Source: an uncultured Elusimicrobia bacterium (GTDB lineage Bacteria; Elusimicrobiota; Elusimicrobia; UBA1565; UBA9628). From it: a DNA stretch of 64,000 nucleotides. The notes under the pieces were generated by a model. The model did no database searches. It saw only the letters and a program-made list of their open reading frames with translations, and was not told where the DNA came from. The position numbers and the translations under genes are program-made. The stretch lies in NCBI GenBank assembly GCA_903830945.1, contig CAIKVT010000060.1:1-64000 (forward strand), written 5' to 3'. Positions within the stretch are counted from its first letter, which is position 1. Each line of letters opens with the position of its first letter. Shown piece by piece: positions 36,770-63,478 of this stretch.

Positions 36770-38137
36770 ATGATGGGGACATTACGGACGCTGTTCCTGA
36801 ACCCTCCGTCATACGCCGGATTCGACGGGGGTGCAGGTTCGCGCTACCAGGCCTGTCGAGAGGTCCGCTCTTACTGGTACCCGACATGGCTGGCCCAGCC
36901 TGCGGCCATGATCGCAAACTCCAAGCTCATCGATGCGCCGGCGAACGGCCTTAACGTCGAGCAGGTCCTTCAGATGGCCAAAGGTTTCGAGCTCTGCGTC
37001 ATACATACCGCCGCCCCTTCTTTTTCCAATGACGCCCGCGTCGCCGAAGCCCTCAAGCGCGCCCATCCGGACATGACTGTCGGGTTCGTCGGGGCCCATG
37101 TGGCCGTTCTGACAGAGGAATCCCTGCGCGCCGCGCCAGCGCTCGACTTCGTGGCCCGCGAGGAGTTCGACTACTCCCTGCTCGAAATCGCCCAGGGTAC
37201 GCCTCTCGCCCAAGTCCCGGGGATAAGCTTCCGGCAGGACGGCGCCATCCGCCGCAATCCCGACCGCGAGATCATCAAGGACGTGGACGCCTTGCCGAGC
37301 GTGCTGGACATCTATAAGCGGGACCTGAAGGTGGAGAACTACTGCATCGGATACCTCCAGCACCCCTATCTCTCGCTCCGCACCTACCGGGCCCGCAGCG
37401 CCGCCAACATGATCGCAGAGATGGCCCGGGCCAAGGAGCTTTTTCCCCAGGTCAAGGAATTCTTCTTTGATGACGACACCTTCACAGCCGACCTGCCCCG
37501 AGCCGCCTGTATTTCCCGCGGCCTGGGCCGGCTCGGGTTGACCTGGTCCTGCAACGCGCGCGCCAACGTGCCCCACGAATACCTCAAGATATTCAAGGAG
37601 AACGGGCTGCGCCTGCTTCTGGTGGGCTATGAATCGGGCAATCAACACATTCTCGACAACGTTCACAAGGGCCTGCGCCTGGATGTGTCGGAGGAGTTCT
37701 CGCGCAGCTGCCGGACCCTGGGCATCCTCGTGCACGGGACCTTCGTCCTGGGCTTGCCTGGCGAGACCAGGGAGACCATCGCCGAGTCCATCCGTTACGC
37801 CTGCCGCCTCGACATCGACACCATCCAGGTCTCGCCGGCCGCCCCCTATCCGGGCATGGAGCTCTACCGACAAGCTATGGCCGACAAGTGCTGCAAGCCC
37901 GGCAACCTGGCGCGCAACGATAGGGCCCAATCCTGCGCGTTGTCCTATTCCGATCTCTCCGCCGCCGACATCCAGGCCGGGGTCAAACGGTTCTATGCAC
38001 GGTTCTATGCGCGGCCCACGCCGATCTGGCGCATGCTGGCGCGCATGACCCGGGACCCCGAGGAGCGGCGGCGGCGGCTACGCGAAGGGCGGGAGTTCCT
38101 GCGCTATCTGGGCAGCCGGACATCGGTGGCGGCCTGA
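36770..38137 (+). CDS. hpnJ: HpnJ hopanoid protein lacking the radical-SAM cluster motif
   Basis: The 455-residue protein follows HpnJ throughout: LFLNPPSYAGFDGGAGSRYQ at the start, a B12-binding-like N-terminal half, EFFFDDDTF, WSCNARANVP, LLLVGYESGNQ and HGTFVLGLPGE. HpnJ is the radical-SAM enzyme that converts the glucosaminyl bacteriohopanetetrol head into a cyclitol ether. Relatives have, after PYLSL, a loop with CX3CX2C that holds the 4Fe-4S cluster, then YRxRS. Here PYLSL runs straight into RTYRARS (junction near 37378), and no CX3CX2C exists anywhere in the protein. About 22 residues are missing in frame. The gene is otherwise intact, so loss of the normal activity is likely. ATG at 36773 is an alternative start. 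Confidence 0.9.
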   Translation: MMGTLRTLFLNPPSYAGFDGGAGSRYQACREVRSYWYPTWLAQPAAMIANSKLIDAPANGLNVEQVLQMAKGFELCVIHTAAPSFSNDARVAEALKRAHPDMTVGFVGAHVAVLTEESLRAAPALDFVAREEFDYSLLEIAQGTPLAQVPGISFRQDGAIRRNPDREIIKDVDALPSVLDIYKRDLKVENYCIGYLQHPYLSLRTYRARSAANMIAEMARAKELFPQVKEFFFDDDTFTADLPRAACISRGLGRLGLTWSCNARANVPHEYLKIFKENGLRLLLVGYESGNQHILDNVHKGLRLDVSEEFSRSCRTLGILVHGTFVLGLPGETRETIAESIRYACRLDIDTIQVSPAAPYPGMELYRQAMADKCCKPGNLARNDRAQSCALSYSDLSAADIQAGVKRFYARFYARPTPIWRMLARMTRDPEERRRRLREGREFLRYLGSRTSVAA

Positions 38138-39378
38138 TGGACTGGCGACTGCTCATCTTGTTCATTCTGGCTGTCTATCTAGCCGGCAAGACCGTCGCGG
38201 TCTGGCTCGCCTGCCTCACAGCCGCCTTTGCCGGTGTCTTCGCCGTGGCCACCGTAGCCGCCGCCGCCGTCCTCCTGCGCCGGCGGCGGGCTGCGGCCGA
38301 GGACCTTCCTCCCGTCACCATCCTCAAGCCTCTCAAAGGGTCGGACTGCGGCCTCTATGAAAACCTGACCAGCTTCTGCGACCAGGACTACCCCCAGCTG
38401 CAGCTGCTTTTCGCAGTGGCTTCTCCCAACGACCCGGCCCTTGCGGTAGTGGCCCGTCTGCGCCGCGACCGGCCAGGCCTCGACATCGACGTCGTTGTCT
38501 CCGATGGCCGCCTAGGCTGCAACCCGAAGATCAACAACATCACCAATGCCTATCCCCTGGCCAAGCACGGCCTCCTGCTGCTCTCGGACTCCGATATCCG
38601 CGTGTCACCGGACTTTTTGAGGCGTTGCGTAGCCCCGATGGCCGATCCGAAGGTAGGCCTGGTCACATGTTTTTACCGCTGCGCCGAAGCGCACGGCCTC
38701 TGGGGAGCTCTGGAGGAACTCTGCGTCAACGCGCATTTCCTGCCACAAGCGCTTCTGGCCGGGGCTGCCGGCCTGCGCTTTGCCATGGGCGCAGCCACCT
38801 TGGTGCGCCGCCCCGTCTTCGACAGGGCAGGGGGCTTCGGCGCCCTAGCCGATCACCTGGCGGATGATTTTGCCTTGGGCACGATGGTGGAGCGGGCTGG
38901 CTACCGCATCGAGTTCGCCGACGTCATGGTTGAATCCGTTCCGCCGAACACCCCCCGGTTCTCTGAGATATTCCGCCACCAGGTCCGCTGGCAGCGCACG
39001 GTGCGCCTGTGCAACCCGGCCGGCTATTGCGGTTCCTTGCTTCTGCACGGATTCTCCCTGGCCACGCTGGCCCTGCTGATCTTTGGCCACAACCCGCGCC
39101 TGGAGGCCCTTACCGCGGGCCTCCTGGCCGCCAAGGTGGTGGCCACCGCGGCTATCCAGCGCCTCGGCGGCAAGCACCAGCGCCTGGCCGTGCTGGCCTG
39201 CCTGCCTTTAAGCGAGTGGTTGTCCTTCGGAGCCTGGCTCTCAGGGTTTGCGTCCGGTGCGGTGCTCTGGCGCGGCCAGCTCTACCGGATATCTCCCAAA
39301 GGACGGCTGGAGCCTGTGCCCATGCCGCCCCCTTCGGAAACGGCGCTTCCCAGGGCGCCGGAGACGGTCGAGTCCTGA
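38137..39378 (+). CDS. hpnI: HpnI, hopanoid glycosyltransferase (GT21 type)
   Basis: The 413-residue protein has N-terminal transmembrane helices (two, within about 5-47), then a GT-A domain: PPVTILKPLKGSD, LSDSDIRV (metal-binding Asp pair), ADDFALG and HQVRWQRT (the HxxRW form of the QxxRW motif), followed by C-terminal membrane segments. This is the ceramide glucosyltransferase-like HpnI. In the characterised pathway HpnI adds N-acetylglucosamine to bacteriohopanetetrol. The ATG shares one base with the hpnJ stop (TGATG). It is followed 19 bases later by hpnL. Confidence 0.93.
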   Translation: MDWRLLILFILAVYLAGKTVAVWLACLTAAFAGVFAVATVAAAAVLLRRRRAAAEDLPPVTILKPLKGSDCGLYENLTSFCDQDYPQLQLLFAVASPNDPALAVVARLRRDRPGLDIDVVVSDGRLGCNPKINNITNAYPLAKHGLLLLSDSDIRVSPDFLRRCVAPMADPKVGLVTCFYRCAEAHGLWGALEELCVNAHFLPQALLAGAAGLRFAMGAATLVRRPVFDRAGGFGALADHLADDFALGTMVERAGYRIEFADVMVESVPPNTPRFSEIFRHQVRWQRTVRLCNPAGYCGSLLLHGFSLATLALLIFGHNPRLEALTAGLLAAKVVATAAIQRLGGKHQRLAVLACLPLSEWLSFGAWLSGFASGAVLWRGQLYRISPKGRLEPVPMPPPSETALPRAPETVES

Positions 39379-39397: not shown

Positions 39398-40399
39398 ATG
39401 AGGCATTTCGAGCGCATCCTTCTCGCCGTCGGCCTCATCACCCTGGCCGTCTTGCTCTGGAAGTTCGAGCCCGCGACAGTCTGGGGTTTGGTCTGCCGGG
39501 TCGGCTGGGGATTCGTCATCATCCTGCCCATGCAACTTTGCGACCACATGATCAACGCCATGGGCTGGCGCTACGCTTTCGCCAAGATGGATGCAGGGCG
39601 CGTGCCGTTCTGGCAGTTGGTGCGCGTCCGCGTGGCCGGCGACGGGGTCAACTACCTAACCCCCAGCGCCACTATCGCCGGCGAGATCATCCGGCCCGGG
39701 ATGCTGGAAATGTATCTTCCGGCCGAGGCGCGCAATTCCAGCGTAGTGGTGGCCAAATTCGCCCAATCGCTAGGCCAGGCGTGCTTTGCCATGGTCGGCC
39801 TGCTTGTGCTCATTCCCCTGCGCCTGGGGTTCCTGTCCGGCAGTCAGGTATGGGCCGGCCTGGGGGTCTGCGCGTCAATCATCGTTCTGGTCGGCGCGGC
39901 CATGGTTGGGTTCTGCGCCCGGCACCGCGACGGGACCTACTTCTGGCGCCTGCGCGAGCCCTTAGCCGGCCTGCGCGACCAGACGACGCGTTATCTGCGC
40001 GAAAGCCCGGGGCGTTTTGCCCTCTCAACGTTGTTTTTCCTCTTAGGTTTCGCCTGGGGTGCCTGGGAAGTGATGGTCATCTGCCACTTCCTGGGCATCC
40101 GCATGGACGCACTCACGGCCCTCTCAGTAGAGGTCCTCTCGGTGCTGGTGGACTCGATATTCATCGTGGTCCCGGCCAAGATCGGCACGCAGGAGGCAGG
40201 CAAGACGGCCATTTTCGCGGGGCTTGGCCTGTCTGCGAGCAAAGGCCTGGCCTTCGGCCTGGTACGCCACGTGCGGGAACTGGCCTGGGCCGTGACTGGG
40301 TTCGCTATCTACGCCTGGGACCGACGCCGTCGCGCTAGCGCGCAGCGCTCAGCAGTTGGATGCCCTCTTCCTGAAGGGTCTGCCGCACCCGGGGACTGA
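39398..40399 (+). CDS. hpnL: HpnL, hopanoid-associated membrane protein (flippase-like domain)
   Basis: This 333-residue integral membrane protein has about six to eight hydrophobic segments and belongs to the lysylphosphatidylglycerol synthase/flippase-like (UPF0104) family. Conserved features are GDGVNYLTPSATIAGE near 83-98, and VPAKIGTQEAGKTAIF in the later half. HpnL proteins occur in hopanoid operons and are thought to help transport or partition hopanoids; this is inferred from location. The ATG at 39398 matches the family N-terminus. Its last 65 bases overlap convergent hpnK. Confidence 0.9.
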   Translation: MRHFERILLAVGLITLAVLLWKFEPATVWGLVCRVGWGFVIILPMQLCDHMINAMGWRYAFAKMDAGRVPFWQLVRVRVAGDGVNYLTPSATIAGEIIRPGMLEMYLPAEARNSSVVVAKFAQSLGQACFAMVGLLVLIPLRLGFLSGSQVWAGLGVCASIIVLVGAAMVGFCARHRDGTYFWRLREPLAGLRDQTTRYLRESPGRFALSTLFFLLGFAWGAWEVMVICHFLGIRMDALTALSVEVLSVLVDSIFIVVPAKIGTQEAGKTAIFAGLGLSASKGLAFGLVRHVRELAWAVTGFAIYAWDRRRRASAQRSAVGCPLPEGSAAPGD

Positions 40400-41198
40400 T
40401 CAAGGCCGATAGTTCTGTCGAGCTGCGATGGGTGGGCGTCGGTTCGCCGTCGCAAGCCGTCTCCAAGGAAGGGTGGAAGTATATCTCGCTGACGCCTTGC
40501 GGCAGGCGGCGCAGGAGCCAGATCACGTAATCCTCCGTCATCATCCCAGAGTGGAGCATGCCGAAGGCCCGAGTGAGGCTCAGATCCCTAGCCTGCCGCC
40601 GCGATGCCAACCCCAAGGCGCCGTAGGCGCAGGAGAGCAGCAATTGCGGCATGATGGGCGCCGGGCTCTGGTTGCGCACCGGCGAACCGGTGACGAGGGC
40701 TCGCCAGTCCGCGAAGGCGTAGGCCAGGCTCGGGCCCAACTCGCCGGCGGGCCAGCGGATGCGGGGTATGCCGAAACGCCTGGCCAGGCGCAGGACCGCG
40801 GGAAATACCGCAGGGTGAACGTGCGCGTTGAAATGGCTGTCGAGATGCGTCGGGGCCAGGCCCAGAGCTAAGAAGCGCATGATTTGACCGCACATCAGAG
40901 CCTCGATTTCACCTCTGGCCTGACTGTCGCCTAACAGGCGCAGGCCCCAAGCCGCGGGGTCACTTTCGCAGAGCACCAAGTGCACGCCCACGCCGAGGCC
41001 GGGACACAGGCGGGCCGCCTTGGTAGCTTCCTCTGCGGCCGGAGCGTCGACCATGAGGCTGGCGAAGCCCAGGACGCCGTCCCGGTTGGCCTGCAGTACG
41101 GCCGCATTGACCTCCGGGCTGACACCGAAGTCGTCGGCCGTGGTGACGAGCTGGCGCGGGCTCAAGGCGGCGGGATTCCTATGATCGCGATCTGGCAA
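40335..41198 (-). CDS. hpnK: HpnK, YdjC/ChbG-type deacetylase of hopanoid glycan
   Basis: The roughly 287-residue protein has the YdjC signature near the start (LVTTADDFGVSPEVN) with metal-binding Asp residues, LGVGVHLVL, and THLDSHFNAHVHPAVFPAVL with His ligands. In the pathway HpnK removes the acetyl group from the GlcNAc attached by HpnI, giving glucosaminyl bacteriohopanetetrol. The start is uncertain: TTG at 41198, or TTG at 41165 just before LSPRQLVTTADDFG. It lies 55 bases after the pilin gene on the same strand and overlaps hpnL's 3' end by 65 bases on the opposite strand. Confidence 0.9.
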   Translation of the reverse strand: MPDRDHRNPAALSPRQLVTTADDFGVSPEVNAAVLQANRDGVLGFASLMVDAPAAEEATKAARLCPGLGVGVHLVLCESDPAAWGLRLLGDSQARGEIEALMCGQIMRFLALGLAPTHLDSHFNAHVHPAVFPAVLRLARRFGIPRIRWPAGELGPSLAYAFADWRALVTGSPVRNQSPAPIMPQLLLSCAYGALGLASRRQARDLSLTRAFGMLHSGMMTEDYVIWLLRRLPQGVSEIYFHPSLETACDGEPTPTHRSSTELSALISPRVRQTLQEEGIQLLSAAR

Positions 41199-55884: not shown

Positions 55885-57924
55885 ATGATTAGAAGAATCG
55901 TCCCGGAGTGGATGGTCCCCCGAGGCGGCACCTTCCGAAAACCCAAGGACTGGGCGGAAAATCTCAAGCCGGACCCCGCGGCTCCCACGGCGCACCCTGA
56001 GATCCCCCACGACCTGCGCCAGGCCATCCGGAGAGCCCAGGAAGCGGTCCTGCGCCGCCAGGATAAGGAAAAGGGCTATTGGTGCGCGGACCTCAAGGCC
56101 GACACCACCATCGACTCCGACACCATCATGCTCTATAATTTCCTGGGCCGGAGCGGCTCCATCAAGATCCATAAGCTCGCCGGCCATATCCTCAACGAGC
56201 AGCTCCCATGCGGAGGCTGGCCTATCTACCGCAACGGGCCGGCCGATCTTTCGGCCACGGTCAAGGCTTATTGGGCGCTCAAGTTCGCCGGATATCCAAT
56301 CACGGACGAACGCTTGGCTAAAGCCCGGCTCCGCATCCAGGAACTCGGCGGCATCCACAAGGTCAACACATATACAAAATTTTACATGGCCATCTTCGGT
56401 CAATACGATTGGCGAGGCGTTCCCACAATCCCTCCAGAGTTGATGTTGTTCCCGAATTGGTTCTACTTCAACATCTACGAGATGTCCTCTTGGACCAGAG
56501 CCATAGTGGTCCCCCTCTCCATCGTATGGGCCTACCAACCGGCAATCCCTTGCCCCCCGCACGCGGCGCTGGGAGAGCTGTTCCCTGATTCCCGTCGTCA
56601 CGTTCCTCTCAAGGAGGCCGTCGAGCCGCACGGCCTGTTCTCTTGGACCACATTCTTCCTTCTCTGGGACCAGGGCTTGAAGGGCATGGAGGGTCGCGGC
56701 GGCCATTGGATCCGAGTATGGGCCCTGCGCCTGGCTGAAGACTGGATGCTCAAGCGACTGCAGGACTCCGACGGGCTAGGCGCCATCTACCCGGGCATCG
56801 TCAACAGTATCATGGCCATGAAGTGCCTAGGCTACCCGGACACGGACCCGCGCTTAGTCGAGCAGCTTGAGGAGCTCGACCGGTTGGAATTGCCCCACGC
56901 AAGCGGCGAGTCGACCGAATGGCAGCCCTGCCGCTCCCCGGTCTGGGACACGGCCATCTCCGTCATCGCCCTGGCCGAGTCCGGCATGGAGCGCGGGCAT
57001 TCGGCCCTGGTGCGCGCCGCCGACTGGCTCATGAGCAAGGAGATCAAGACCGCAGGGGACTGGAAGGTGACCAACCCCGCCGGGCCGGTGGGCGGCTGGG
57101 CCTTCGAGTTCAACAACGCCTTCTACCCCGACATCGACGACTCCGCCATGGTCATGCTGGCCCTGCGCCACGTCCACCTCGACGAGCACACGGCCCACCG
57201 GCGGGAGAAGTCCTGCCTGCGGGGCCTCAACTGGCTGCTCTCCATGCAGTCCAAGGACGGCGGCTGGGCCGCGTTCGACAAGGACAACACCAAGGTTATC
57301 CTGACCAAGATCCCGTTCTCCGACCACAACGCCATGATCGACCCGCCCTGGGCCGACGTCACCGGCCGGGTGCTCGAGTTCTTGGGCTACATCGGCTACG
57401 ACCAGAGCTATCCGGCCGTGGCCCGAGCCGTGCGCTTCCTGCGCAAGGAGCAGGAGGAGGACGGCTCGTGGTTCGGCCGCTGGGGGGTCAACTACATCTA
57501 CGGGACGTGGCAGGTCTTGCGGGGCCTCACGGCGATCGACGAGGATATGAACCTGCCCTACGTGCGCCGCGCCGTAGAGTGGCTTAAGTCCGTACAACTG
57601 TCGGATGGTGGATGGGGCGAGACTTGCGCCACCTATGAGGATCCGTCGTTGAAGGGCAAAGGCCCGGCCACGCCCTCCCAGACCGCTTGGGCCCTCATGG
57701 GGCTCATGGCCGCCGGAGTCTACGATGATTCCGTATGCCGGGGTGTCGAATACCTGGTGCGCACCCAGAAAGCGGACGGGACCTGGGACGAGGCCGAGAC
57801 CACAGGGACGGGCTTCCCCAAGGTCTTTTACCTCGAATACACGATGTACCGCAATTACTTTCCCATCCACGCTCTCGGCGTCTACCAGTCGGCCCTGGGA
57901 GAATCTTTCTCCGAGGGCCTCTAG
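55885..57924 (+). CDS. shc: squalene-hopene cyclase
   Basis: The 679-residue enzyme folds squalene into hopene on the membrane. It has the catalytic DIDD (D416-D419, within FEFNNAFYPDIDDSA), several QW motifs (such as QSKDGGWAAFDKDN and VQLSDGGWGETC), and the N-terminal QDKEKGYWCADLKADTTI. Length is typical. The ATG at 55885 is chosen by the closely placed consensus promoter. It heads the early hopanoid operon, with hpnH following six bases after the stop. Confidence 0.97.
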   Translation: MIRRIVPEWMVPRGGTFRKPKDWAENLKPDPAAPTAHPEIPHDLRQAIRRAQEAVLRRQDKEKGYWCADLKADTTIDSDTIMLYNFLGRSGSIKIHKLAGHILNEQLPCGGWPIYRNGPADLSATVKAYWALKFAGYPITDERLAKARLRIQELGGIHKVNTYTKFYMAIFGQYDWRGVPTIPPELMLFPNWFYFNIYEMSSWTRAIVVPLSIVWAYQPAIPCPPHAALGELFPDSRRHVPLKEAVEPHGLFSWTTFFLLWDQGLKGMEGRGGHWIRVWALRLAEDWMLKRLQDSDGLGAIYPGIVNSIMAMKCLGYPDTDPRLVEQLEELDRLELPHASGESTEWQPCRSPVWDTAISVIALAESGMERGHSALVRAADWLMSKEIKTAGDWKVTNPAGPVGGWAFEFNNAFYPDIDDSAMVMLALRHVHLDEHTAHRREKSCLRGLNWLLSMQSKDGGWAAFDKDNTKVILTKIPFSDHNAMIDPPWADVTGRVLEFLGYIGYDQSYPAVARAVRFLRKEQEEDGSWFGRWGVNYIYGTWQVLRGLTAIDEDMNLPYVRRAVEWLKSVQLSDGGWGETCATYEDPSLKGKGPATPSQTAWALMGLMAAGVYDDSVCRGVEYLVRTQKADGTWDEAETTGTGFPKVFYLEYTMYRNYFPIHALGVYQSALGESFSEGL

Positions 57925-57930
57925 CCTACA

Positions 57931-58986
57931 ATGCCATCCTCCCTAGCTCTGCAAATGGCGGTCTTCCGCTACATCCTGGGCCGCAAGTTTCGCGGCGATG
58001 AACGCTTCCCTCTCGTGCTCATGCTCGAGCCCCTCTTCGCCTGCAACCTGGAATGCGCAGGCTGCGGCAAGATCCAGTTTCCCCCCGATATCTTGCAGAA
58101 GCGGCTCACCCCGCAGGAGTGCTGGGACGCGGCCGCCGAGTGCGGCGCCCCTGTGATCTCCATCGCCGGAGGCGAGCCCCTCATCCACTCCCAGATCGAC
58201 CTCATCGTGCAGGGCCTCATCGAGCGCGGCAAGTTCGTATTCCTCTGCACCAACGGCCTGCTCCTGGAAAAGAACCTGCACCGCTTCAAGCCCAGCTCGC
58301 ATCTCATCCTCTCCATTCATCTCGACGGCCCTGAGCCAGTCCATGACCGCATCGTCTGCCGCCCGGGCGTCTTCAAGACCGCGGTCTCGGCCATCCGGAC
58401 GGCCAAGGCCAAGGGATTCCGCGTCATGACAAACTCCACCATCTTCCAGGGCCAGGATCCCACCGAGTTCCGCCGCTTCTGCGCGGAACTCGCGGCCCTG
58501 GGGACCGACGGCATCATGATCGCGCCCGGCTTCGCCTACTCCAAAGCCAAGGGCCAGGGGATGTTCCTCAAGACCGACCAGACCAAGGCTTGGTTCCGGG
58601 AGGCTTTGAAGGACTGGCGCAAGATGGGCTGGGACTTCAACCACAGCCCCTTCTACCTGGATTTCCTCGAGGGTAAGCGGGATTATGACTGCACGCCGTG
58701 GGGCCTGCCCCTGCGCACGGTCCTGGGCTGGCAGCGGCCTTGCTACCTCTTCGAGGAGGGCGGCTATGCCCAGACCTACGCCGAGCTGCTCGCGACCACT
58801 CCCTGGCAGAAATACGGTCGGGCCTCGGGCCACCCTGCCTGCGCCAACTGCATGTCGCACGTGGGCTTCGAGCCCTCGTCCGTGGTGGACGCCTTCTCCT
58901 CTCCCAAGAGGTTCCTGGAACTGATCTGGGATTTCGCGACCATCCGTGGCCCGCGCAAGACGGCCGGGACGGGGTCGTCGAGCTGA
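57931..58986 (+). CDS. hpnH: HpnH, radical-SAM adenosylhopane synthase
   Basis: This 351-residue radical-SAM enzyme joins the adenosyl group of S-adenosylmethionine to hopene. The cluster motif is intact (CNLECAGC, C38-C42-C45), followed by ISIAGGEPLIH and a C-terminal SPASM-like Cys region (HPACANCMSH). It has LMLEPLFACNLECAGCGKI in the typical place. No clear ribosome site lies upstream of the ATG, so coupling to shc is likely. Its TGA stop shares a base with the hpnA ATG (TGATG). Confidence 0.96.
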   Translation: MPSSLALQMAVFRYILGRKFRGDERFPLVLMLEPLFACNLECAGCGKIQFPPDILQKRLTPQECWDAAAECGAPVISIAGGEPLIHSQIDLIVQGLIERGKFVFLCTNGLLLEKNLHRFKPSSHLILSIHLDGPEPVHDRIVCRPGVFKTAVSAIRTAKAKGFRVMTNSTIFQGQDPTEFRRFCAELAALGTDGIMIAPGFAYSKAKGQGMFLKTDQTKAWFREALKDWRKMGWDFNHSPFYLDFLEGKRDYDCTPWGLPLRTVLGWQRPCYLFEEGGYAQTYAELLATTPWQKYGRASGHPACANCMSHVGFEPSSVVDAFSSPKRFLELIWDFATIRGPRKTAGTGSSS

Positions 58987-60676: not shown

Positions 60677-61584
60677 CAAGCTTGCTCAACCGCTTTATGG
60701 AAGGCACGTCCCGCCGCGTGGACGCGGTTCTTAACAGGCTCCTGAAGTCCAAGCCCGAAGAACCCGCCGAGATCCGCAAGGCCATGCGCTACTCGCTCTT
60801 CGCGGGCGGCAAGCGCCTACGGCCGTCTTTGGTCGCGGCCGCGGCCGAATGCTGCGGCGGGAAGGCCGGCCGGGTCCTCAAGACCGGCGCAGCCCTCGAA
60901 ATGATCCACACCTATTCCCTCATCCACGACGACCTGCCGGCCATGGACGACGATGACCTGCGCCGCGGCAAGCCCACCAGCCACAAAGTCTTTGGGGAAG
61001 CTCTGGCCATACTCGCCGGCGACGGTCTGCTGACCTTGGCCTTCGAGACCGCGGCTGCCAACGCCCGCGACTGCGGCCTTGACGGCAGGGCGAGCGCCGA
61101 ACTGGTCAAGGTCATCGCCGTAGGCGCCGGGACCTCGGGCATGGTGGGCGGCCAGGCGGCGGACCTGGGCGCTGAGAAGTGGCGGGGGCGCCTGCCGCGG
61201 GCCCGCGCCGGGCGACTCCTCGAGTATATCCATCTTCACAAGACCGCGTCTCTTATCATCGCCAGCCTTGAGGCCGGAGCCATCCTGGCCGGAGGGACGG
61301 CCGCGCATAGGCGCGCCTTGCGCGCCTATGGACGGGCCATCGGGCTATCCTTCCAGATCGCCGACGACATCCTCGACGTGGTCGGCGACAAAAAGAAGCT
61401 GGGCAAGAAAGGCTCCGACGCAGCCAACCAGAAGCTCACCTATGTCTCGCTCTACGGCCTGAGCCGCGCCAGCGCGGAGGCTGCCGCCTTGACCAGGAAA
61501 GCACACCGCGCCCTGGCTCCCTTCGGACGCCGCGCCGCCGTACTTCATGAGCTGGCCGATTACATCGTCACAAGGGATCGCTAG
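60673..61584 (+). CDS. ispA: farnesyl/geranylgeranyl diphosphate synthase
   Basis: This 303-residue trans-prenyltransferase has the first Asp-rich motif DDLPAMDDDD (86-95), FQIADDILD as the second, GGKRLRP and the IHTYSLIHDD region. Residues just before the first motif are as in E. coli IspA, so farnesyl diphosphate is the likely product, though chain length is not certain from sequence. It supplies the precursor for squalene and other isoprenoids. It is coupled to hpnG by an ATGA overlap. Confidence 0.93.
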   Translation: MTSLLNRFMEGTSRRVDAVLNRLLKSKPEEPAEIRKAMRYSLFAGGKRLRPSLVAAAAECCGGKAGRVLKTGAALEMIHTYSLIHDDLPAMDDDDLRRGKPTSHKVFGEALAILAGDGLLTLAFETAAANARDCGLDGRASAELVKVIAVGAGTSGMVGGQAADLGAEKWRGRLPRARAGRLLEYIHLHKTASLIIASLEAGAILAGGTAAHRRALRAYGRAIGLSFQIADDILDVVGDKKKLGKKGSDAANQKLTYVSLYGLSRASAEAAALTRKAHRALAPFGRRAAVLHELADYIVTRDR

Positions 61585-61585
61585 C

Positions 61586-63478
61586 TTGGAACTGTTGCCC
61601 CTCATCCAAAGCCCCGCCGACCTGCGCCAACTCAAGGCGCCGCAGCTGCCCCAGGTCTGCGAGGAGCTGCGCCGGAGCATCCTTAAGACCATCTCCCAGT
61701 CCGGGGGCCACCTCGGATCCAGCCTCGGCGCCACCGAGATCATCACCGCCCTCCATTACGTCTTCAAGACCCCTCAGGATAAGATCATCTTCGACACGGG
61801 CCATCAGAGCTACAGCCACAAGCTCCTCACCGGCCGCCGGGAGAAGTTCGCCGGCATCCGGCAGTTCGGCGGCATCTCGGGCTTCCCCAAGCGCTCCGAA
61901 TCCGAGTACGACGTCTTCGGCGTCGGGCATGCCTCCACCGCCATCTCCGCGGCCCTGGGCGTGGCGGCCGCGCGCGACCTCAAGGGCGAGGACTTCAAGG
62001 TCGTGGTCCTGGTCGCCGACGGCTGCATGACCGGGGGCGAGGCCTACGAGGGACTGCAGAACGCCGGCATGCTGCAGTCGGACCTGCTCGTCATCCTCAA
62101 CGACAACCAGATGTTCATCTCCAAACGCGTCGGCGCCTTAGGGACGTTTTTGACCAAGCTCCTGACCTTGGGCGCGGTGCGGGGGGCCGAGGATTCGGTC
62201 AAGAAGTTCCTGGAGCGCTTCAAGTTCTGGGGGTCCAGCATCCTGCGCCTAGCCAAACGCGCGCGCGTGCTGCTCTTTCCCGGCATGCTCTTCGAGGAGA
62301 TGGGCTTCGCCTACTTCGGCCCGGTGGACGGTCATGACGTGGTCCAGCTCGTGGAGGTTCTCGAGCACATCAAGTCCCTGCGCGGCCCCATCCTGCTGCA
62401 TTGCATCACTAAGAAAGGCAAGGGCTACCCGCTGGCCGAGAACGATGCCGCCATGTGGCACGGGCCCGGCCGCTTCGACTTGAGCACAGGGCAATTCTTC
62501 AAGAACCCGGCCATGAAGGACCCGCCCCCGAGTTACACCGCGGTCTTCGGCAAGGCCGTGGTCAAGGAAGGGCAGCGGGACTCGCGCGTGGTCGCCATCA
62601 CCGCAGCCATGCCTGATGGCACCGGCCTGGACCGTTTCCGCGACGAGTTCCCCCGCCGGTTTTTCGACGTGGGCATCGCTGAGGAACATGCGGTGACCTT
62701 CGCGGGCGGCTTGGCCGCCGAGGGCTGCCGGCCGGTCGTCGCCCTCTATTCCAGTTTTCTGCAGCGGGGCTTCGACCAGGTGGCCCATGACGTCTGCCTG
62801 CAGAACCTTCCAGTCACCTTCGCCATCGACCGCGCGGGCCTAGTCGGCGAGGACGGCCCCACGCATCACGGGGTCTTCGACCTGGGATTGCTGCGCATGC
62901 TGCCGAACATCACCGTGATGGCGGCGGCTGACGAGAACGAACTGCAGCACATGCTGCGCACGGCGCTGACCCTTGACGGCCCGGCGGCCCTGCGCTATCC
63001 TCGCGGCCTCGGGGTGGGCGTGGCCATGGACCCGGAGGCGCATTCACTGCCCATTGGCAGGGGCGTGCGGCTCAAAGAGGGCGGCGCGGTCACCCTGCTC
63101 GCCATCGGCAGCCGCGTGCATCCGGCTCTGGCGGCCGCGCATATGCTCGACGACCAAGGAATCTCCACGGGTGTCATCAACATGCGCTTCGTTAAGCCCT
63201 TGGACGTAGAACTCATGCGCCAAGCCGCGGCGGCCACGCCGCGCCTGGTCACGGTCGAGGACAACGCGCTGTCGGGAGGGTTCGGCAGCGCGGTCCTGGA
63301 GGCTCTCGCCGGCCGTGGCGTTGATGTGCTGCGTCTAGGCATACCGGACCGCTGGGTGGAGCATGGGTCTTTGGGCCAGCTCTACGATCTGGTGGGGATT
63401 TCGCCTGAGAAGATCGCGCTGCGGGTCGCCGAGTGGTGTAAAAATGTCCCGGGAGGATATGTCCATGATCATCGATGA
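61586..63478 (+). CDS. dxs: 1-deoxy-D-xylulose-5-phosphate synthase
   Basis: The 630-residue thiamine diphosphate enzyme starts the MEP pathway. It shows GHLGSSLGATEI, GHASTAISAALGVA, DGCMTGGEAYEGLQNAG (cofactor binding), NDNQMFISKRVGAL, FGPVDGHD and GIAEEHAVTFAGGLA. The start is TTG at 61586 with AAGGGA eight bases upstream; a longer open frame begins at 61547 inside ispA and is less likely. Its location after ispA fits supply of isoprenoid precursor for hopanoids. Confidence 0.96.
   Translation: MELLPLIQSPADLRQLKAPQLPQVCEELRRSILKTISQSGGHLGSSLGATEIITALHYVFKTPQDKIIFDTGHQSYSHKLLTGRREKFAGIRQFGGISGFPKRSESEYDVFGVGHASTAISAALGVAAARDLKGEDFKVVVLVADGCMTGGEAYEGLQNAGMLQSDLLVILNDNQMFISKRVGALGTFLTKLLTLGAVRGAEDSVKKFLERFKFWGSSILRLAKRARVLLFPGMLFEEMGFAYFGPVDGHDVVQLVEVLEHIKSLRGPILLHCITKKGKGYPLAENDAAMWHGPGRFDLSTGQFFKNPAMKDPPPSYTAVFGKAVVKEGQRDSRVVAITAAMPDGTGLDRFRDEFPRRFFDVGIAEEHAVTFAGGLAAEGCRPVVALYSSFLQRGFDQVAHDVCLQNLPVTFAIDRAGLVGEDGPTHHGVFDLGLLRMLPNITVMAAADENELQHMLRTALTLDGPAALRYPRGLGVGVAMDPEAHSLPIGRGVRLKEGGAVTLLAIGSRVHPALAAAHMLDDQGISTGVINMRFVKPLDVELMRQAAAATPRLVTVEDNALSGGFGSAVLEALAGRGVDVLRLGIPDRWVEHGSLGQLYDLVGISPEKIALRVAEWCKNVPGGYVHDHR

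Follow-up and report, generated by a model that had tools for sequence, protein, structure and literature searches.

The native HpnJ (HpnJ1) of an uncultured Elusimicrobia bacterium has lost its radical-SAM cluster loop from within a single open reading frame, and a second, full-length HpnJ (HpnJ2) with an intact motif is carried on another contig of the same assembly. HpnJ1 is probably a genuine, lineage-specific dead copy that was displaced by the acquired HpnJ2, its frame perhaps being kept open by coupling to the downstream hpnI gene. In the literature searched, no previous description was found of an HpnJ lacking its cluster loop, nor of hopanoids in Elusimicrobiota.

Hopanoid genes of the window

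In hopanoid biosynthesis, HpnI transfers N-acetylglucosamine onto bacteriohopanetetrol (BHT), HpnK carries out the deacetylation, and HpnJ forms the cyclitol ether (PMC12583986; PMC5462960). In the window, that is, the whole stretch of 64,000 nucleotides analysed, the native hpnJ gene (36770..38137, forward strand) encodes 455 amino acids and was assigned by its TIGR03471 score and same-genus synteny. It is followed by hpnI (38137..39378, forward strand), the BHT N-acetylglucosaminyl transferase gene, with 362.1 bits against TIGR03472 (cut-off 310). The hpnJ stop and the hpnI start overlap in a TGATG (38133..38139, forward strand), which is conserved in all five genus members checked (the window, G001, G002, G005, and G006). 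An open frame at 39398..40399 (forward strand) encodes a membrane protein, putatively HpnL-like (lysylphosphatidylglycerol-synthase-like), which was named by its position after hpnI and by a similar gene in a Mycetohabitans cluster. An hpnK-like deacetylase gene lies on the reverse strand (40335..41198), and its product scores 180.4 bits against TIGR03473, below the curated cut-off of 232.6. The hpnJ locus is syntenic with same-genus hpnJ loci, and hpnI and the hpnK-like gene are ordered as in the relatives.

Further along the window, a squalene-hopene cyclase gene (55885..57924, forward strand; TIGR01507, 730.9 bits) precedes hpnH (57931..58986, forward strand; TIGR03470, 456.9 bits). HpnH retains its CX3CX2C motif as CNLECAGC, just as an earlier sequence-only reading of this DNA had stated. 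Between hpnH and the FPP synthase gene, the segment 58986-60676 resembles a fast-evolving nucleoside phosphorylase at the position expected for HpnG.

Loss of the cluster loop from HpnJ1

HpnJ1 scored 621.9 bits in the profile search against TIGR03471, the radical-SAM bacteriohopanetetrol cyclitol ether synthase model, and thereby passed the curated cut-off of 577.6, with the match falling into two pieces (profile positions 2-202 and 222-470). The 455-residue frame reads HPYLSL directly into RTYRARS, with no CX3CX2C at the conserved position, so the junction described in the sequence-only reading was confirmed. Same-genus orthologues read HPYLSL-YTGRGCPARCTFCLWPQTVGG-RTYR(A/P)RS at this site, and the DNA alignment with G001, G002, and G006 together with structure models placed the deletion junction between L203 and R204 (37378..37379, forward strand). 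The gap begins after base 37378 and is in frame as had been proposed, although it amounts to 63 nt (21 codons) and not to the approximately 22 residues first estimated. Its two breakpoints have 1 nt in common.

The motif was found in 117 of 119 extracted HpnJ loci, and both exceptions are the window gene itself; all 117 other loci carry the motif. HpnJ exceeded the cut-off in 43 of 341 Elusimicrobiota genomes, and among the matches listed from these 341 genomes HpnJ1 was the only HpnJ whose profile match was broken exactly at the motif inside one open frame. None of the relatives shares a deletion of the same form, and a scan of viral contigs for the deletion junction gave no match. HpnJ1 resembles the family along both flanks of the gap and has the same B12-binding and radical-SAM architecture and the same hpnJ-hpnI order as the genus, but differs in the absence of the defining CX3CX2C loop and in the substitution of three invariant columns outside the gap.

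AlphaFold (AF2) modeling agrees with a confined excision. The HpnJ1 model (pLDDT 83.7) passes almost directly from a strand at residues 200-203 into a helix at 211-224, whereas the model of the G002 orthologue (pLDDT 88.6) has a strand at 199-203, a 28-residue loop at 204-231, and a helix at 232-245. By these models, the deletion would remove only the cluster-binding loop between strand β1 and helix α1. The closest solved structure by sequence to intact HpnJ of the genus is AprD4 (PDB 6fd2), a radical-SAM 1,2-diol dehydratase acting on paromamine, which is also the nearest solved fold to the HpnJ1 model; AprD4 differs in that the stretch aligning with the HpnJ1 gap is present and contains cysteine. 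Radical-SAM-like proteins without a cluster, judged by name only, were met in the HpnH scan as pseudo_SAM_Halo (NCBIfam TIGR04347). TIGR04347 is a curated family, whereas HpnJ1 represents a single-lineage loss within an otherwise catalytic family.

In radical-SAM enzymes, SAM is bound and cleaved by a [4Fe-4S] cluster, whose ligands are the three cysteines of the CX3CX2C motif. Lacking the ligating loop, HpnJ1 would be unable to cleave SAM or to act as a radical-SAM catalyst. It follows from the sequence that this copy should be regarded as catalytically dead and not be classed among the catalytic HpnJs despite its acceptance by the curated model.

Sequence evolution and the question of an assembly artefact

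Changes unique to the lineage showed an excess of amino-acid replacement in HpnJ1, with a nonsynonymous to synonymous count of 31:38 compared with 1:17 in the sister G002 (OR 13.9, p=0.002), and the excess persisted against G001 and G002 combined (OR 5.7, p=0.0015). The same comparison with pooled control genes gave no difference (OR 1.07; the HpnL-like control gene is to be disregarded, as the frame used for it was wrong). A single control gene, dxs (window 61547-63478), also showed a lineage-specific excess (OR 3.6, p=0.003), which was unexpected, with unique counts of 61:83 here and 7:34 in G002. The nonsynonymous to synonymous ratio of HpnJ1 was average for its own lineage when set against other genes (OR 1.22, p=0.45), and its tip dN/dS was 0.163 versus 0.061. 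Three substitutions of HpnJ1 (S81A, T363M, and G385R) fall in columns that are invariant in 39 intact HpnJs from many phyla and a fourth (W374C) in a nearly invariant column, the losses including residues of the conserved APYPGT..W...G region. HpnJ1 thus appears to be relaxed, yet not freely neutral. The ratios fit a loss late on the branch; as a rough estimate, about one tenth of the branch would postdate the loss if dN/dS rose at that point from about 0.06 to 1.

There is a small chance that the cells carry an intact hpnJ from which 63 nt were dropped in metagenome assembly, an explanation that the sequence-only reading had also raised. The species is represented by one genome. In favour of an artefact, the assembly is fragmented (84 contigs, 1.95% contamination), and the near relatives in public collections are themselves metagenome bins. 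However, the bin contains no second allele or fragment of the native hpnJ, the loss is of exactly 21 codons in frame, and the single nucleotide shared by the breakpoints offers no repeat to account for an assembly collapse. Among the other genes compared, none has a comparable deletion restricted to this genome; the largest one seen in them is 7 codons. The lost invariant residues and the lineage-specific relaxation in the rest of the gene also speak against an artefact, and an assembly deletion is therefore disfavoured.

A second HpnJ at a variable locus

HpnJ2 (G000:C29:2588-4015, reverse strand) is full-length, scores 751.2 bits against TIGR03471, above the equivalog cut-off, and keeps the cluster motif as RGCPAFCTFC. 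It shares less than 50% identity with HpnJ1, and no counterpart was found in 57 relatives. The gene order on this contig is ptr1-folB-folE-[..HpnJ2..]-tRNA-Pro, a genus-syntenic locus, and the neighbouring folE, folB, and ptr1 products are 74-88% identical to those of genus relatives. In the same-genus genome G004, the ptr1-folB-folE order is the same and folE is separated from tRNA-Pro by about 1.5 kb. In the present genome, the corresponding interval (G000:C29:2400-8900) encodes HpnJ2 together with an AAA ATPase, an MFS transporter, and a 618-aa ORF. The interval differs among genus members and resembles a hotspot of insertion, and the segment beside tRNA-Pro in which HpnJ2 lies is missing from the genus. 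HpnJ2 is not a contaminant, since its gene occupies the variable part of a native locus, with genus-syntenic folE, folB, and ptr1 on one side and the syntenic tRNA-Pro on the other.

The closest HpnJ2 relatives found, at 69-77% identity, belong to eight Thermodesulfobacteriota genomes, in every one of which hpnK directly adjoins the HpnJ2 relative. HpnJ2 is accordingly an HpnJ of the sulfate-reducer (Desulfobacterota) type. HpnJ2 nests inside the Thermodesulfobacteriota clade with 100/100 support, and the HpnJ clade including HpnJ2 is separated with 100/100 support from five outgroup proteins (homologues below the cut-off). An earlier placement of HpnJ2 as a deep isolated branch came from trees without the Thermodesulfobacteriota relatives; this was a sampling effect and disappeared once they were added. 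No close relatives were found in Elusimicrobiota, Methylomirabilota, or Verrucomicrobiota, and the viral contigs scanned gave no match to HpnJ2 relatives. Compared with the Thermodesulfobacteriota hpnJ-hpnK pairs (e.g., in G1117 and G893), HpnJ2 is 77% identical, clusters with them, and has an intact motif, but it stands by tRNA-Pro as an orphan, far from hpnI and hpnK and with no hpnK neighbour, while the HpnI and HpnK-like genes of this organism adjoin the dead HpnJ1. Two HpnKs beside HpnJ2 relatives were scored and reached 355.6 and 326.5 bits, as against the 180.4 bits of the window hpnK-like product. Two HpnJ copies also occur in other genomes (G232:C170 and C255; G342:C292 and C200; G343:C82 and C373), so this organism is not alone in having a doubled HpnJ. 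The best reading of the tree and the distribution is that HpnJ2 was horizontally gained by this lineage, the direction of transfer being suggested by its absence in the relatives of the host.

The sequence-only reading had proposed, as the first of three options, that the gene is newly inactivated and that hopanoids stop at glucosaminyl BHT. The catalytic death of the copy holds up, and the stop is probably wrong, because an intact HpnJ2 is present in the same assembly. A pathway truncated in this way, making glucosaminyl-BHT and no cyclitol ether, would agree with a dead HpnJ1 beside a remaining HpnI and HpnK-like gene, and Rhodoligotrophos appendicifer, which is without hpnJ and has BHT glucosamine as its sole product, indicates that a stop at that step is viable (PMC12583986). 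Against it stand the score of HpnJ2 over the equivalog cut-off, its membership in a clade paired with hpnK elsewhere, and a dN/dS of about 0.16 when HpnJ2 is compared with the nearest relative found. Truncation is accordingly considered unlikely, and the last step is probably now performed by HpnJ2.

Proposed course of the displacement

Under displacement by HpnJ2, the distant homologue would have been gained horizontally first and the loop of the native enzyme lost afterwards, through an in-frame 63-nt deletion that took the β1-α1 cluster loop out of HpnJ1. The loss may have been tolerated because the lineage already had the distantly related HpnJ2, which would convert the glucosaminyl-BHT supplied by HpnI and HpnK of the window into the cyclitol ether. 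Translation of hpnI is presumably coupled to that of hpnJ via the TGATG overlap, and this coupling may be the reason that the hpnJ frame is still open. A frameshift in hpnJ would risk uncoupling hpnI; owing to the stop/start overlap, an in-frame loss would leave hpnI translation undisturbed and could provide a non-polar route to lose hpnJ. Several points weigh against this course, namely the orphan position of HpnJ2 far from hpnI and hpnK, its identity of less than 50% to HpnJ1, the average nonsynonymous to synonymous ratio of HpnJ1 on its lineage, and the excess in the control gene dxs.

The open frame of HpnJ1 could instead mean that the protein still serves a purpose as a non-catalytic pseudoenzyme, for instance by scaffolding HpnI and HpnK or by partnering or regulating HpnJ2, but this is improbable. 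The frame, ribosome-binding site, and operon position are all kept, the loop-less fold is still predicted fairly confidently, dN/dS is well under 1, and the excision falls precisely between β1 and α1. However, invariant residues elsewhere are gone, including those of the APYPGT..W...G region, and coupling to hpnI together with a recent loss accounts equally well for the open frame. The loop-less form occurs in no relative, and nothing therefore points to its long-term maintenance by selection. More improbable still is the specific case in which the cluster-less protein was kept, after the gain of HpnJ2, as a partner without catalytic activity, for instance as a scaffold that channels substrate between HpnI/HpnK and HpnJ2; HpnJ1 would then be a radical-SAM pseudoenzyme taking part in hopanoid head-group synthesis.

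Implications for the HpnJ family

The cyclitol ether serves as a biomarker in geology and ecology, and surveys of hopanoid genes predict it where hpnI, hpnJ, and hpnK are present. Here a curated equivalog model, TIGR03471, passes a protein that should be unable to function as a radical-SAM enzyme, and automated annotation will call it a working HpnJ. The likely active copy is a xenologue that stands as an orphan on a different contig, and thus operon-based reading and single-gene annotation would both mislead, for opposite reasons. If confirmed, the locus would cleanly capture the stage at which a distant homologue displaces a gene of an operon, and translational coupling to hpnI would plausibly account for the dead frame staying open.
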